From the NCBI GenBank assembly GCA_030682135.1, contig JAUXQT010000107.1, forward strand, positions 1-64,000: 64,000 nucleotides of DNA. The letters are read 5' to 3'. The notes beneath the pieces are model-generated. The model did no database searches. It had not been told where the DNA came from and saw nothing but the letters and a program-made list of their open reading frames with translations. This document shows positions 12,512-19,008 of this stretch, piece after piece. The position numbers were made by a program, and so were the translations under genes. Position 1 is the first letter of the stretch. Each line of letters starts with the position of its first letter. The stretch is from Nitrospirota bacterium (GTDB lineage: Bacteria; Nitrospirota; Nitrospiria; Nitrospirales; Nitrospiraceae).

Positions 12512-12643
12512 GGGGATGAACCTCTGTCGTAGGATGAACGGCCGGTATCTATAACACGTGAGGAAAAGTGTTGTACAGAATCGTGGGTTATAACCCTTTC
12601 ATCTCTGCTGGCCTTCTGATATGAGAGGGATACGGAGATCGTG

Positions 12644-13348
12644 ATGGCGGAACTCACACAACCGGCGACGGTCCTCTCGATCATGGATCTTACGCCCCAC
12701 GTTCGCCAGCTCATACTCCTCCCGACTGTTCAGCACATCGCCTTTCGACCCGGTCAATGGGTCTCACTTAAATTGCCAGTCGGCGCCAAACCACCGCTGA
12801 ATCGAGCCTACTCGATGGCGGCACCTGGCACTGCATCAGGCGAGCTGACGCTTGTCTTCGACCGCATACCTGGCGGCACGGGCTCCAACTACCTCTACCA
12901 CCTCAAACCTGGCGATCAGACGGAACTCTCGGGCCCCTATGGAAACTTCGCCCTTCCTGTCTCTCTCGATCGGGAAATGATTCTGATCGCCCGTTACACC
13001 GGCCTCGTCCCGATCCGCTGCATGCTGAAACATCTCTATGCACAACGACAGACGGCAGCGATCCTCCTGATCGCCGTCGCTCCGGCGGAGGAAGAACTAC
13101 TCTTTCATCAGGAATTGCTCACGTTGGCCGTCACCCATCCCAGGTTTCGCTACCTACCCCTGGTGGCCGCCGGAGGGGAGCAGCAAGGCGTCGACCTCAC
13201 GCTCTCTATGCTGAGGCCCTTAATTGAAGGGGCCACGAAAGTCACGCCCATGCTATGCGGCACGAAAGGATTTGTGCGGCCCCTGCGAGCCTACTTTGTC
13301 GAGGCAGGTTATGACCGGAAGGATGTGAAAATGGAAACCTACGATTAG
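12644..13348 (+). CDS. Ferredoxin-NAD(P) reductase-type FAD protein
   Basis: A 234-residue protein with an FNR-like FAD-binding barrel: RAYSMA (54-59), and GGTGSNYLYHLKPGDQTELS containing the second flavin segment. The NAD(P) domain follows. The expected AGGTGIAP turn reads ARYTGLVPIR (116-125), so the glycine pair is replaced by Arg-Tyr, which may change nucleotide affinity. The C terminus has the usual CG-type motif MLCGTKGFV. It would move electrons between a pyridine nucleotide and an iron-sulfur protein. Its stop codon overlaps the stop of the convergent ferredoxin gene by 4 nt, and that ferredoxin is the obvious partner. ATG 12644 follows GGAG; a GTG three bases earlier is also possible. 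Confidence 0.8.
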   Translation: MAELTQPATVLSIMDLTPHVRQLILLPTVQHIAFRPGQWVSLKLPVGAKPPLNRAYSMAAPGTASGELTLVFDRIPGGTGSNYLYHLKPGDQTELSGPYGNFALPVSLDREMILIARYTGLVPIRCMLKHLYAQRQTAAILLIAVAPAEEELLFHQELLTLAVTHPRFRYLPLVAAGGEQQGVDLTLSMLRPLIEGATKVTPMLCGTKGFVRPLRAYFVEAGYDRKDVKMETYD

Positions 13349-13761
13349 TGCCCTTCCCGCACGAGGTTCTTGTTCACGGACGGGATTTCGACCACAATGT
13401 CCTTCGTCCCATTCGGCACACATTGGCAACCGAGTCGGGACTGCAACGTCGTAACCGGCGCTTGCTCCAACTCATCGAACTCATCGTCCGTCCCTTCACT
13501 GCAGCTCTCAAGCCCCTGTTTCACGATGACGTGACAGGTCGAGCAGGCGCAGACCCCCCCACAGACATGTTCCAACGCAACCCCACTGCCCATCGCCACG
13601 TCCAGGAGACTCCCTGGAAGCCCGGTCGGACCATAGGGAATTTTAGCTGGATCGACCTCAACCTTCGTCACCACACCATCAGGGGCAATAAAGGTGACGG
13701 TGTAGGCTCGCTGAGGTAGCTCATACTCAGCCTTTTCAATATAGGGATTGGTCCCGCCCAT
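13345..13761 (-). CDS. fdx: [2Fe-2S] ferredoxin of the ISC type
   Basis: A 138-residue ferredoxin with cluster ligands C67, C73, C76 (CGGVCACSTC) and C112 (RLGCQC), the adrenodoxin/Fdx pattern used to feed electrons to IscS/IscU in cluster assembly. It has about 15 more N-terminal residues than E. coli Fdx. Extra cysteines C71 and C87 are present. It is divergent from iscR across a 135-nt gap holding the likely Isc operators, so both sides may share control. It is convergent with the reductase gene, with a 4-nt overlap of stop codons (TTAG). Confidence 0.92.
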   Translation of the reverse strand: MGGTNPYIEKAEYELPQRAYTVTFIAPDGVVTKVEVDPAKIPYGPTGLPGSLLDVAMGSGVALEHVCGGVCACSTCHVIVKQGLESCSEGTDDEFDELEQAPVTTLQSRLGCQCVPNGTKDIVVEIPSVNKNLVREGH

Positions 13762-13805: not shown

Positions 13806-13835
13806 TTGACAGCTCTGAAACCTGCATGCTACTGT
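13806..13835 (+). promoter_or_regulatory. Probable promoter of the isc operon
   Basis: TTGACA (13806-13811), 18 nt, then TACTGT (13830-13835). The predicted start point falls at about 13842, inside the first operator-like repeat. This is the expected geometry for repression by a bound regulator. Confidence 0.45.
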
Positions 13836-13839
13836 TAGT

Positions 13840-13888
13840 CCGACCTTATTGATCGGAGATCATTATAGTCTCCGACCTAGAAGATCGG
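13840..13888 (+). promoter_or_regulatory. Two operator-like repeats upstream of iscR
   Basis: The motif CCGACC-N5-GATCGG occurs at 13840-13856 and again at 13872-13888, 32 bp apart (about three helical turns). Each is an imperfect inverted repeat, as expected for a dimeric Rrf2 regulator. The second copy ends 8 nt before the iscR start. Binding by IscR is inferred from position and autoregulation in other bacteria. Confidence 0.55.
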
Positions 13889-13896
13889 CAATAACA

Positions 13897-14370
13897 ATGT
13901 TGAAGATTTCAAAAAAAGCAGATTATGCCCTTATGGCACTTCAGCACATCGCTGCAGCCCAGTTCGGTGACGTCACGCCTGGGCGCGTGGTGAATACGAA
14001 GGAAATTGCGGAGGAATATAACATCCCCCTCGAGCTCCTGGCCAAAGTACTCCAGACTCTTTCCAAGAATGCCTTGATCGAGAGTCACAATGGTCCCAAA
14101 GGCGGCTACGTCCTGGCCCGTCACGCGCACCAGATTACGATCGCGCAAATTCTGGAAAGCATCGAAGGCCCATTGGGTATCACCGATTGTTCCCATGAAA
14201 AAGATGGCGAGTTCTGCATGCAGCGGGGAAATTGCAACATCCGCACTCCGCTCCTGAAAGTCCAGGACAGCATCGCTCAATTGCTCAACAACATGACCCT
14301 GCATGACATGATGGGTGGCACACCCCTCATTACGATTCAGTCTCCCTCGGCACAAGGAGTCGAACGATGA
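13897..14370 (+). CDS. iscR: Rrf2-family iron-sulfur regulator IscR
   Basis: A 157-residue Rrf2-type regulator. The N-terminal winged helix covers about residues 1-75 ([43 protein letters not shown]). Three cysteines, C98, C107 and C113, can hold a [2Fe-2S] cluster as in IscR; the first spacing (9) is wider than in E. coli (6). With a cluster, IscR usually represses the isc operon and so matches supply to demand. ATG 13897 is chosen because translation begins with the conserved [12 protein letters not shown]; the frame continues open upstream. Two operator-like repeats lie before it. Its stop overlaps the iscS start by 4 nt. Confidence 0.9.
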
Positions 14371-15584
14371 AACTTCCCATATTCCTAGACAACCATTCCA
14401 CCACACCGATGGATCCACGCGTCTTGGAGACCATGCTCCCGTACTTCGTCGAAAAATTCGGGAACGCCGCCAGCCGCAACCATGCCTTCGGGTGGGCCGC
14501 AGAAGAAGCCGTCGAGAATGCCCGAAAGCAGATCGCGAAGCTGATCAAGGCTGATCCGAAAGAAATCGTCTTCACGAGCGGCGCCACTGAATCGGATAAC
14601 CTTGCGATCAAGGGCGCACTGGAGATGTATGGGGAAAAAGGCAACCATATCATTACGTCCGCCACCGAGCACCGCGCCGTGCTCGACACCGTCAAGGTGT
14701 TAGAGGGCAAGGGCAAAGCAACCGCGACCTATCTCCCTGTTGATAAATGTGGAATGGTCAGCCCCGAGGATGTGCGGAATGCGATCACGGAGAAGACGAT
14801 CCTCATCTCCGTCATGATGGCGAACAATGAAATCGGCACGATCAACCCCATCAAAGAGATCGGCAAAATCGCCAAGGAGAAGGGCATCCTCTTCCACTGC
14901 GATGCCACCCAGGGCGTTGGCAAGATCCCAGTCGATGTCCAGGATATGGGCATCGACCTGATGTCCTTCACCAGCCACAAGATGTACGGACCCAAGGGGG
15001 TTGGAGCGCTCTATGTGAGAAAGAAGAATCCTCGCGTTCGCATCGTCGCCCAGATAGACGGCGGTGGACACGAGCGAGGCATGCGCTCCGGGACACTTCC
15101 GGTGCCCCTCATCGTGGGATTCGGCAAGGCCTGCGAACTCTGCGAGCAAGAGATGACCAAGGAGACGGCACGGTTGATTGCGATGCGCGACCGGCTCGAG
15201 GCCAGTATCATGAAGGCCCTCGAAGAAAGTTATCTGAACGGTCATCCGACCAACCGGCTTCCCGGCAACCTCAATATCTCCTTTGCCTATGTGGAAGGCG
15301 AATCCTTGCTGATGGGCATGAAAGACATTGCCCTTTCATCCGGCTCGGCCTGCACGTCGGCGACGTTAGAACCCTCCTACGTACTCCGCGCATTGGGAGT
15401 TGGAACAGAACTGGCGCATTCCTCGATCCGTTTCGGCCTGGGCCGCTTCAACACGGATGACGAGATCGACTATACGATCAAAAAAGTGGTCGAGATTGTC
15501 ACGAAGCTGCGCGAAATGTCCCCGCTCTATGAGATGGCAAAAGAAGGCGTCGATCTGAAATCAGTTCAATGGGCTGCCCACTGA
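14367..15584 (+). CDS. iscS: Cysteine desulfurase IscS
   Basis: A 405-residue PLP enzyme that takes sulfur from cysteine and passes it to IscU and other acceptors. It starts [19 protein letters not shown]. The PLP lysine is K205 in [12 protein letters not shown], the persulfide cysteine is C329 in [17 protein letters not shown], and H-rich segment TEHRAVLD holds the stacking histidine. Length and the long catalytic loop match IscS rather than SufS. It is the second gene of the isc operon, overlapping iscR by 4 nt and followed by iscU after 27 nt. Confidence 0.97.
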
Positions 15585-15611: not shown

Positions 15612-16010
15612 ATGGCCTACAGTGACAAAGTCGTCGATCATTTCAATAACCCCCGCAACATGGGGTCTTTCAAGAAAGACGAAGAAGGGGTCGGCACCGG
15701 TATGGTCGGAGCCCCGGAGTGCGGTGACGTGATGAAGCTCCAGATCAAGGTGCAGAACGACATGATCGTGGATGCAAAGTTCAAGACTTTCGGCTGCGGA
15801 TCCGCGATCGCCAGTTCAAGCCTCGCCACCGAGTGGCTCAAGGGCAAGACGATCGAGGAAGCGCAGAAAATCAAGAACACCGACATCGTGCAGGAGCTGA
15901 ACTTGCCGCCCGTGAAGATCCATTGTTCCGTGCTGGCTGAGGACGCCATTAAGGCCGCCCTCGCGGACTACCAAAAGAAAGCCGACGGCACCCCAACTGC
16001 CGCGAAGTAA
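15612..16010 (+). CDS. iscU: Iron-sulfur scaffold IscU
   Basis: A 132-residue scaffold on which new [2Fe-2S] clusters are built. The three ligand cysteines are C37 (PECGD), C62 (FGCGS) and C105 (HCSVLAED), with D39 next to the first, exactly the IscU pattern. The chaperone recognition motif LPPVK lies at about 98-102 and would be bound by HscA, encoded downstream. GAGGAGG precedes the start. It lies between iscS and iscA. Confidence 0.97.
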   Translation: MAYSDKVVDHFNNPRNMGSFKKDEEGVGTGMVGAPECGDVMKLQIKVQNDMIVDAKFKTFGCGSAIASSSLATEWLKGKTIEEAQKIKNTDIVQELNLPPVKIHCSVLAEDAIKAALADYQKKADGTPTAAK

Positions 16011-16030: not shown

Positions 16031-16387
16031 ATGGACACCACGAATACAGAGACCCAGGCTCCGGTGATTACGCTCAGCGAGGCGGCCATGAAGGAAGTCA
16101 AACGCCTCATCAACGTGCAAGGCCTCACGGAAGGCGGGCTCCGCCTCGGTGTAAAGGGCGGCGGCTGCTCAGGCCTGAGCTACACGATCAACTTCGACGA
16201 AAAGATCGGCCCGCATGACCAAGTCCATGACATTGATGGCGTAAAAGTGATTATTGACGCCAAGAGCGCCATTTATCTTCAAGGCTCGCAGCTGGACTTC
16301 CAGAAAGACTTGCTGGGCGGAAACTTTAAATTCGTCAATCCGAACGCCGATAAAACTTGCGGCTGTGGAGAGTCCTTCTCCGCATAA
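16031..16387 (+). CDS. iscA: A-type iron-sulfur carrier IscA
   Basis: A 118-residue A-type carrier with the invariant cysteines C46 (GGGCSGLSY) and C110/C112 (CGCGESFSA at the C terminus). Such proteins take clusters from IscU or help form [4Fe-4S] clusters for target enzymes. The N-terminal extension of about 10 residues is rich in T. It is followed by a strong 11-bp hairpin before hscB. Confidence 0.95.
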   Translation: MDTTNTETQAPVITLSEAAMKEVKRLINVQGLTEGGLRLGVKGGGCSGLSYTINFDEKIGPHDQVHDIDGVKVIIDAKSAIYLQGSQLDFQKDLLGGNFKFVNPNADKTCGCGESFSA

Positions 16388-16465: not shown

Positions 16466-17182
16466 ATGGACCATCAACAAACCCACAGCTCAAACCCTCG
16501 AGAGCTCCAGATGGCCAGGAGCATGTGTTGGCACTGTCAGTCCGAAGTGTCCGGTGAATACTTCTGCGATCGCTGCGTCAAAGTCCAGCCGGTGTCGAAA
16601 GAGACCGATTACTTCACCTGCTTCGGATTCCCGAGGCGGCTGACCATCGACCCGGGTAAATTGGAAGCGAAGTTCTACGAACTCAGCCGTGCGTTTCACC
16701 CTGACTTCTATCAGAATAAAAGCGAAACGGAGCAGAGCATCAGCCTCGGCAATGCCGCGACGCTCAATTCAGCCTACCGTACGCTCCGCGATCCGATTCA
16801 GCGTGTCGAATATCTGCTCGACCTGGAAGCTGGCTCTGTAAAGGAGATCAGAAATTCTCCTCCTGCCGATCTCTTCGAGGAGATCCTTGAGCTGCAGGAT
16901 ACGCTCGACGAGTATCGGGCTTCCGATCGCACATCGGATGCGGGCCAGCAGCTCCGCACACAACTCCAAGCAGAACAAGTCACCCTGGAACAGCGCAAAC
17001 GGGATATGGAGACCCAACTCCAACAGCTCTTCACCGACTGGGATCTTCTTCAAGATCGGGGTGAAGCGACCAGCCAGGCCCGCTCGGAACGAGACCGTCT
17101 ACTGAAGCAGATGCGGGAGATTCTCTCCAACCGGACCTACGTTAAAAGCATCGTCAACGACCTCGTTGCAACCATCGGATAA
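16466..17182 (+). CDS. hscB: Co-chaperone HscB with N-terminal zinc finger
   Basis: A 238-residue J-type co-chaperone that brings IscU to HscA. The N terminus has a CxxC pair of pairs (CWHC at 21-24 and CDRC at 34-37), a zinc-finger-like extension also known in eukaryotic HSCB but missing from E. coli HscB. The J domain carries HPD at 78-80 within YELSRAFHPDFYQ, and the C-terminal three-helix bundle binds IscU. GAGG lies 8 nt before ATG 16466; ATG 16511 would also keep the finger. It lies 5 nt from hscA. Confidence 0.92.
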   Translation: MDHQQTHSSNPRELQMARSMCWHCQSEVSGEYFCDRCVKVQPVSKETDYFTCFGFPRRLTIDPGKLEAKFYELSRAFHPDFYQNKSETEQSISLGNAATLNSAYRTLRDPIQRVEYLLDLEAGSVKEIRNSPPADLFEEILELQDTLDEYRASDRTSDAGQQLRTQLQAEQVTLEQRKRDMETQLQQLFTDWDLLQDRGEATSQARSERDRLLKQMREILSNRTYVKSIVNDLVATIG

Positions 17183-17187
17183 CCATC

Positions 17188-19008
17188 ATGGCACGCATCG
17201 TCGGCATCGATCTCGGCACTACAAACTCGCTCGTTGCCTATATGGATAACGGACGCCCGCGCGTCATCCCTGGACGGAACGAGCGCGCGATCGTGCCCTC
17301 CGTCGTGGCCATGACCGACAACGGGCTCATCGTCGGCGACGCCGCGAAGGAACACCTGACGCGCAATCCTGAGCGGACGGTCTACTCCGTGAAACGGTTC
17401 ATGGGAAAAGGACTCGCGGACGTACAAAGCGAGCTGGCCTACTTCCCCTACTCGCTCACCGAACAAGGCGGGGTCATCCGCATCAAGCTCGGCGAGAAGA
17501 CCTATTCGCCCCCGCAAATCTCCGCAATGATTTTGAAAGAACTGAAACAGCGGGCCGAAGCGCATCTCGGCGAAAGCATCACCAAAGCCGTCATCACGGT
17601 CCCTGCGTATTTCAACGATAGCCAGCGGCAAGCCACGAAAGACGCCGGCATGATCGCCGGGCTGGACGTCCTGCGAATCATCAACGAACCAACCGCCGCC
17701 TCGCTTGCCTACGGACTCCAAGAGAAGACGCAAGGCACGATCGCGGTGTACGATTTCGGCGGAGGCACCTTCGACATCTCCATCCTCAAGCTCAAAAATG
17801 GCATCTTCGAAGTGTTGGCCACCAACGGCGACACTCACTTGGGCGGAGACGATATCGACCGCCGAATTGCCGACCTCTTCCTGACAGACATCAGCAGCCG
17901 GCATGGCATCGATCTCAGTAGTCACCCGGACCACATGCAAACGATCCGGCTCGAAGCAGAACGGGCCAAGATCGGTCTGTCCGACGCACTCAAGATACAG
18001 GTGTCGGTCGAGCTTCCTGACAACAATGGACGCTTCACGCGAGAGCTGACGCGGGACCAGCTCGAAGCACTGATCATGGAGATCATCGAACGGACCCTGA
18101 CTCCCTGCCGGATGGCCTTGAAAGACGCAGGGCTCTCCCCGGACGCGATCGACGAAGTCGTGCTGGTCGGTGGTTCTACCCGCATGCCGATCGTCCGGCA
18201 ACGTGTTCAGGAACTGTTCGGAAAGACCCCGCACTGCGAGATCAATCCCGACGAAGTCGTGGCGCTCGGCGCAGCCGTGCAAGCGGACATCCTCAGCGGC
18301 GGCACGACGGATATGCTGTTGCTCGACGTCACGCCGCTCTCTCTGGGCATCGAAACCATGGGCGGAGTCATGAGCAGCCTGATTCGACGAAACACGACGA
18401 TCCCCGCCAGTGCCAAGGAGATGTTCACCACCTATGTCGACGGGCAGACCGGCGTGGATATCCACATCCTCCAGGGCGAACGCGAACTGGCGAAAGACAA
18501 TCGCAGCCTGGCGAAATTTCGGCTGAAAGTTCCTCCACTCCCGGCGGGCGTCCCTCGCATCGAAGTGACGTTCCTCATCGACGCCAATGGGATCTTGAGC
18601 GTGAAGGCCAGCGACATGCGAACCGGACTGAGCCAGTCCATCGAGGTAAAGCCGTCGTACGGGTTATCCGACCATGAAGTGGAACAGATGATCGAGGACT
18701 CATTCAAGTTCGCGAAAGATGACGTCAACGCCAGAAAGCTGATTGAGACGAGGCTCGACGCCGGCGCCTTGATCACGACGACGGAGAAATCCCTGGGGGA
18801 CGGCCTTCACCTGATCGCCGAAGAAGATGCCTCAGCCATTCGAGCGGCGCTGTCGGCCCTGGCAACCGCGCAGGAGGGCAACGACCCGCGTGCCATCCGC
18901 GCGCGCATCGCCGACCTCGAACAATCGGCGCAACGACTGACCGTCGCGATGCTGAACGACTCGCTCAAGCGAGGGCTCCAAGGCAAGAAGGTCTCAGACA
19001 TCACCTGA
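17188..19008 (+). CDS. hscA: Hsp70-type chaperone HscA
   Basis: A 606-residue Hsp70 specialised for iron-sulfur transfer. ATPase motifs are GIDLGTTNSLVAY (phosphate 1), VYDFGGGTFDIS (phosphate 2) and VVLVGGSTRMPIVRQ (adenosine). The linker DVTPLSLGIETMGG leads to the peptide-binding domain. It releases assembled clusters from IscU with HscB as ATPase stimulator. Length matches HscA and is shorter than DnaK because the C-terminal lid tail is reduced. The gene context (hscB before, iscX after) separates it from DnaK. Confidence 0.96.
   Translation: MARIVGIDLGTTNSLVAYMDNGRPRVIPGRNERAIVPSVVAMTDNGLIVGDAAKEHLTRNPERTVYSVKRFMGKGLADVQSELAYFPYSLTEQGGVIRIKLGEKTYSPPQISAMILKELKQRAEAHLGESITKAVITVPAYFNDSQRQATKDAGMIAGLDVLRIINEPTAASLAYGLQEKTQGTIAVYDFGGGTFDISILKLKNGIFEVLATNGDTHLGGDDIDRRIADLFLTDISSRHGIDLSSHPDHMQTIRLEAERAKIGLSDALKIQVSVELPDNNGRFTRELTRDQLEALIMEIIERTLTPCRMALKDAGLSPDAIDEVVLVGGSTRMPIVRQRVQELFGKTPHCEINPDEVVALGAAVQADILSGGTTDMLLLDVTPLSLGIETMGGVMSSLIRRNTTIPASAKEMFTTYVDGQTGVDIHILQGERELAKDNRSLAKFRLKVPPLPAGVPRIEVTFLIDANGILSVKASDMRTGLSQSIEVKPSYGLSDHEVEQMIEDSFKFAKDDVNARKLIETRLDAGALITTTEKSLGDGLHLIAEEDASAIRAALSALATAQEGNDPRAIRARIADLEQSAQRLTVAMLNDSLKRGLQGKKVSDIT

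Follow-up and report, generated by a model that had tools for sequence, protein, structure and literature searches.

Within the 64,000-nucleotide stretch of Nitrospirota DNA analysed here (the window), positions 13840–13888 probably constitute a three-core operator of the Rrf2-family regulator encoded downstream, whose holo form would repress both the isc genes and a divergent ferredoxin gene (fdx), with cluster loss releasing both. Taken by itself, the assignment of the array as an operator of the isc-linked regulator is very likely, judging from sequence comparison. The features concerned are as follows.

13345–13761, minus strand: divergent 2Fe-2S ferredoxin gene (best model TIGR02007 fdx_isc, 80.4 bits, below the cut-off of 132.1)
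13806–13835, plus strand: isc promoter (TTGACA at 13806–13811, N18, TACTGT at 13830–13835, preceded by TG; assigned by consensus match only)
13842–13854, no strand: operator core 1, GACCTTATTGATC, inside the repeat at 13840–13856
13858–13870, no strand: operator core 2 (middle), GATCATTATAGTC, with the best-conserved N7 of the array
13874–13886, no strand: operator core 3, GACCTAGAAGATC, inside the repeat at 13872–13888
13862–13891, minus strand: candidate ferredoxin promoter within the array, found by scan (TTGCCG at 13891–13886, N18, TATAAT at 13867–13862)
13897–14370, plus strand: Rrf2-family regulator, first gene of the isc cluster (ATG at 13897; rrf2_super 107.4 bits, cut-off 73.3)
14367–15584, plus strand: iscS (this and the following are open frames named by inspection)
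15612–16010, plus strand: iscU
16031–16387, plus strand: iscA-like
16466–17182, plus strand: hscB-like
17188–19008, plus strand: hscA-like

A sequence-only reading of this DNA had described two CCGACC-N5-GATCGG repeats at a distance of 32 bp, with the expected isc start covered by the first. Both are present as exact copies (13840–13856 and 13872–13888, 32 bp from start to start), although the two-site picture is incomplete, as a third core lies between them at 13858–13870. The outer repeats are both inverted and have a 5-N7-5 layout (CCGAC-N7-ATCGG), and the unit of the array is GAY-N7-RTC, present in three copies that start at 13842, 13858 and 13874. The period is thus 16 bp, or 1.52 helical turns, and 32 bp corresponds to 3.05 turns. 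Cores 1 and 3 have CC/GG flanks, and the linkers are GGA and TCC. Site 1 covers the expected isc start because its first base falls 5 bases past the -10 element. The -35/-10 region is conserved in relatives, and this plus-strand promoter, with 3/6 matches in its -10, scored under the threshold of a sigma-70-like scan. Searching the 64-kb window for CCGAY-N7-RTCGG without mismatches returned only these two sites, while allowing one mismatch gave 21 against 13.8 expected, which is near chance, so a single site is uninformative. What places the array above chance is conservation: the sites are kept in relatives, and the bases between half-sites drift. The earlier reading had overlooked both the core at 13858–13870 and the minus-strand promoter within the array.

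To assess conservation within the order, the regulator was searched for in 120 genomes and the 106 loci with E < 1e-40 were read; 105 of 108 loci were counted, after dropping two copies of the window locus (L008 and L009) and one where the contig starts inside the gene (L096). One genome (G004) contributes two loci, L022 and L071. At least two cores at 16 bp precede the orthologous regulator gene in 89 of the 105 order loci (family f1, 63/63; f2, 6/6; f3, 18/33; f4, 2/3), and 16/105 are without such a pair. At least three cores are found in 58/63, 6/6, 7/33 and 0/3 loci of these families, respectively. Other distances from 8 to 39 bp, except 32, were each seen in at most 14/105 loci. Many f3 loci have the array on the ferredoxin side, ahead of the -35 of the regulator gene, with a lone CCGAT-N7-GTCGG-type site over the isc start. 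A whole-genome scan for the three-core pattern matched 72 of the 120 genomes (the adjoining gene was unread in G079), compared with 0/120 for a backward-read control. Matches in G092, G104 and G111 lie away from the regulator locus, and the single occurrence in the window's genome is at the isc locus. The motif is hence present upstream of other isc operons of the group, and the absence that would have spoken against the earlier reading did not occur. The two G004 loci are array-bearing regulator copies whose identities to the regulator in the window are 94% and about 70%, and the second may be contamination.

A promoter scan of the region identified one sigma-70-like site, the minus-strand TTGCCG-N18-TATAAT. 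Because TATAAT sits in the middle core, with TTGCCG 18 bp upstream, the array in the window's genome probably also spans the divergent ferredoxin promoter. The proposal in the earlier reading that the regulator may also control the ferredoxin gene is supported by this embedded promoter, although the promoter is missing in part of the relatives' loci. Both hexamers occur together in 43 of 63 f1 loci, which are kin and do not represent 43 independent events, while a plus-strand control gave 0 matches. The embedded promoter is missing from 20/63 f1, 16/33 f3 and 9/9 f2/f4 loci; hence, joint control of isc and fdx is not universal. Its presence varies with the length of the fdx gap: where this is 128–154 bp, all 37 of 37 f1 loci have the promoter, compared with 6/26 where it is longer. 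The idea that TATAAT is found only where fdx is divergent failed, as all counted loci of f1 and f3 have fdx as a divergent neighbor.

These data bear on the possibility that only isc is controlled, and that the middle-core TATAAT serves the regulator rather than a promoter. The 20 f1 loci that keep the array without the embedded promoter, some of them with a candidate fdx -10 elsewhere (by inspection), would fit such an arrangement, as would the match of TTGCCG to TTGACA at only 4/6 positions. Nonetheless, the middle N7 in the 43 f1 loci is near invariant (1.95 bits per column), whereas the outer N7s are variable (1.26 and 0.64 bits), and the TTGCCG box accompanies the TATAAT middle N7 in 43/43. 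In the sister family f3, moreover, another core carries an fdx-facing -10 (mostly TAAAAT) in 17/33 loci, 18 bp after a TTGACC-like box. We consider control of isc alone unlikely, though not negligibly so, and favor an array that covers both promoters. Upstream of the regulator in f3 loci such as L097, L098, L099, L102 and L103, the isc and fdx promoters face each other with overlapping -35 boxes (TTGAC...GTCAA), giving a compact two-way promoter. The regulator gene in the window has no evident Shine-Dalgarno sequence at 13889–13896, where CAATAACA stands as part of a conserved CGGCAATA stretch; GGAG is frequent at this place in relatives that lack the embedded promoter.

Compared with characterized systems, the array has a core spacing known from IscR type 1 sites and from RisR, while its outer bases and 16-bp phasing differ. 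IscR type 1 sites in Escherichia coli and Pseudomonas aeruginosa have the same 5-N7-5 layout (YYGAC/GTCRR), with multiple sites at the isc promoter and autoregulation, as described in PMC6599224. The spacing in the window is identical to that of the type 1 core YYGAC-N7-GTCRR, with RTC replacing GTC. The AT ends of type 1 sites are not retained, and against the full 25-bp consensus the three cores match at 15, 16 and 15 of 25 positions, scores that are also reached at hundreds of positions across the window. The claim that the recognition sequence differs from type 1 therefore holds for the outer bases (15–16/25) and the phasing, but not for core length, spacing or GAY...RTC, which are common to both. 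In placement, the P. aeruginosa sites lie upstream of the -35 and between the -35 and -10, whereas the window array lies over +1 and beyond (PMC6599224).

It is also conceivable, if improbable, that the locus comprises two independent ordinary IscR type 1 sites and a non-functional middle core. Two type 1 sites are indeed present at the isc promoters of E. coli and P. aeruginosa (PMC6599224), and in f1 the GGA/TCC linkers favor the outer cores, which have the CC/GG flanks that the middle core lacks in most loci. However, the E. coli and P. aeruginosa pairs are 25 bp apart (2.4 turns; PMC6599224) rather than 16, three 16-bp cores are kept in f1 and f2, and all three cores in f2 have CC flanks or nearly so. 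A three-core operator is more consistent with these patterns.

The regulator itself is an Rrf2 protein, as its family is clear from sequence. It passes the superfamily model TIGR00738 and misses the IscR models widely (TIGR02010, 69.3 vs 207.55; NF008110, 51.9 vs 275), both of which E. coli IscR passes. After the superfamily model, the next best equivalog is TIGR02944 suf_reg_Xantho (89.9 bits, under the cut-off of 110.65), and identity to E. coli IscR is 23%. A quick tree of 95 rows, with long branches flagged, placed the regulator in a 58-row clade (support 84, not starred) containing 42 of the 43 array loci on that tree; the IscR clade (starred, 99) and a RisR-like clade (starred, mostly Myxococcota) are separate. 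Calling the protein IscR, as was done earlier, is thus not upheld, since curated IscR cut-offs are missed and the protein falls outside the E. coli IscR clade, and the name would import an ill-fitting recognition code and cluster ligation.

The regulator has three cysteines (C98, C107 and C113) at steps of +9 and +6, in agreement with the earlier observation of a first step of 9 rather than 6. R116 aligns with His107 of IscR, so the His of the three-Cys-plus-His set is missing. D9, in contrast, aligns with the Asp ligand of NsrR, and Asp is found there in 10/11 aligned rows; the ligand roles of the NsrR Asp and IscR His107 are taken from PMC5411485 and PMC6599224, respectively. At the positions of IscR S40, E43 and Q44, the regulator has E46, A49 and K50, which are invariant in 11/11 rows, and E46 may contact the CC of CCGAY. 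According to PMC5411485, E. coli IscR with the E43A substitution binds type 1 sites as the apo protein. Cluster dependence is therefore not directly transferable from IscR to a regulator with A49 at this position.

Similarities to two other regulators are also apparent. According to PMC5411485, NsrR of Streptomyces coelicolor has Asp8 (the equivalent of D9), no His at the IscR His107 position, and Ala and Lys in the recognition helix; however, it responds to NO and has a different operator, whereas the window's gene heads an isc operon. RisR of Myxococcus xanthus (Rrf2 group IS6) likewise regulates Fe-S genes without belonging to the IscR group. Its cysteines (C92, C102 and C108) have a wider first step, as in the window's regulator, its holo form represses, and its GAC-N7-GTC core has a spacing equal to that of the array cores (PMC9973013). 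The IS6 group is described as including Nitrospirae and Chthonomonas (PMC9973013). Nevertheless, RisR half-sites are T(T/G)GAC...GTCC(T/A), as opposed to CCGAC-N7-ATCGG in the window (PMC9973013), and the window sites do not fit a GGAC-N7-GTCC-type operator. Such sites occur upstream in 15/29 loci of Myxococcota relatives, in agreement with the published RisR site (PMC9973013), and a 16-bp pair occurs in 0/29 (among the matches listed). These RisR relatives have single sites or 25-bp pairs, in contrast to the 16-bp period of the window array, and PxVVSK-like recognition helices, where the window's regulator has PxELLAK. In two RisR-like Myxococcota loci (L382 and L383), two GGAC-N7-GTCC sites are 25 bp apart, as are the paired type 1 sites of E. 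coli and P. aeruginosa.

A strict three-core scan of public genomes returned 77 stretches, 16 of which adjoin an Rrf2 gene based on tblastn. These 16 belong to Nitrospirota, Rokubacteria, Chthonomonadales, Zixibacteria and one further MAG. Examples include Manganitrophus (L234), where a strict three-core array stands beside an Rrf2 gene, Rokubacteria L195, where the array is followed by iscS, iscU, hscB-like and hscA-like frames (by inspection), and Chthonomonadales L221, where it is followed by sufB-like and sufC-like frames. The Zixibacteria protein (L247/L276) has three cores, yet its long branch lies apart from the main clade. The remaining 61/77 stretches, for which tblastn showed no adjoining Rrf2 gene, were set aside as a group. 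L211, L213, L223, L230, L249, L253 and L269 carry overlapping matches at 16-bp steps in unrelated genomes, as coding tandem repeats would give.

A follow-up covered the phylum or order of three array-bearing lineages, two of these searches being read as the matches listed (at most 30 each). Among the matches listed, 55 of 68 loci with an ELLAK-helix regulator outside the order have at least two cores at 16 bp and 13/68 are without a pair, while other distances from 8 to 39 bp, except 16 and 32, each occur in at most 3/68. Other Rrf2 loci in those groups have a 16-bp array in 3/38 cases (among the matches listed; shuffles, 0). The ELLAK label is a motif match, and those three (L356, L360 and L373) are close relatives with arrays but without the motif. 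By tblastn, the first group comprised SUF loci (13 with the array, 4 without), ISC loci (1 with, 10 without) and loci with neither (1 with, 1 without), and the second ISC (25 with, 1 without), SUF (0 with, 2 without) and neither (2 with), both among the matches listed; the third comprised ISC (14 with, 1 without). Array loci have iscS/iscU downstream in 14/14 cases in the third group and 25/27 in the second, and sufB/sufC in 13/15 in the first (the latter two among the matches listed). Because the array persists before both ISC and SUF genes, it tracks the regulator and not one operon type.

This linkage argues against binding of the array by a regulator other than the adjoining Rrf2 protein, an explanation we regard as very improbable. 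While the operator role is predicted from sequence and the window's genome encodes two further Rrf2 proteins, neither of their genes is preceded by an array, nor are the 29 Myxococcota relatives (among the matches listed). The array instead follows the regulator subfamily across phyla and across isc and suf operons, and its presence clusters on the tree (9 changes vs a shuffled mean of 31.4, with 0/500 shuffles as low). Slightly more remote still is an RNA leader element, in which the inverted repeats would form hairpins in the leader transcript of isc and control it after initiation: the array does lie within the first ~50 transcribed bases of isc, and the 13838–13910 RNA fold reaches -19.9 kcal/mol (z -2.84; 1/200 shuffles as good), but any DNA palindrome folds as RNA too, the commonest core ending in the order, GAC...ATC (66/146 distinct 13-mers; 17/102 elsewhere), sets C opposite A in the stem, and f3 loci have the array before the regulator's -35 and a lone site over +1.

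For the preferred three-core operator, we infer binding, repression, cluster dependence and an order of occupation as follows. The loci that lack a 16-bp pair and the 61 three-core stretches away from Rrf2 genes count against it. Each GAY-N7-RTC core would be the site of one dimer. As 16 bp is about 1.5 turns, neighboring dimers would sit on opposite faces of the DNA, with the outer two on one face. The holo-regulator would fill the array and block RNA polymerase at isc +1, a step modeled on RisR and on the action of IscR at its type 1 sites. As the regulator gene heads the cluster, its product would thereby regulate its own synthesis. In the window's genome, the same bound array would cover the embedded fdx -35/-10 and silence fdx. 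Since the predicted isc and fdx starts are ~15 bases apart, with promoters facing, one bound array could shut both, and cluster loss through iron shortage or oxidants would release both. We also put forward, tentatively and as less probable than otherwise, that these loci represent a distinct Rrf2 operator class, used by a multi-phylum subfamily, in which a multi-dimer complex forms at 1.5-turn steps on alternating faces, the Nitrospira-type middle core doubles as the fdx -10, and occupancy of the outer pair competes with that of the middle core. Such competition could arise because the GGA/TCC linkers provide the outer CC/GG flanks at the middle core's expense, and, if real, it could make isc and fdx respond jointly to cluster supply in a graded or switch-like way.

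A search for the motif upstream of other iron-sulfur genes, also called for by the earlier reading, revealed no convincing second target or wider regulon in the window's genome by either exact-site or two-core searches. Exact CCGAY-N7-RTCGG occurs at 44 sites in the genome, 41 of them inside open frames of at least 100 codons, a crude test of frames; one of these 41 is isc site 2, which lies within a TTG-extended frame of the regulator. The three sites outside frames are isc site 1, L005 and L125, and the latter two have no evident Fe-S gene by inspection. The two-core pattern gave 10 rows: two at the isc locus, six inside frames and two (L186 and L187, one place) outside frames, where neither CC/GG flanks nor an evident Fe-S gene was seen. 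SufB reached at best 51.9 bits in the window's genome, far under the cut-off of 346.4, so SUF is probably absent; with no SufB above the cut-off, isc is probably the sole de novo Fe-S system of this genome.

A literature search found no description of such an array or of an isc operator tested in Nitrospirota, with most subscription papers outside its reach. In Leptospirillum (Nitrospirae), oxidants and iron starvation induce iscS, and the available portion of that report leaves open whether the isc regulator is a repressor or an activator (PMC9628965). The array's position over +1 predicts repression for the window's order, Leptospirillum being outside the loci examined. More generally, CCGAY-N7-RTC cores every 16 bp together with an ELLAK helix provide a sequence rule that predicts the operator of an Fe-S regulator, and its reach extends to Nitrospirota, Rokubacteria, Chthonomonadales and relatives, for isc and suf alike. 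On the far side of the ferredoxin gene in the window, a plus-strand frame at 12641–13348, ferredoxin-NADP reductase-like by inspection, abuts that gene in convergent orientation.
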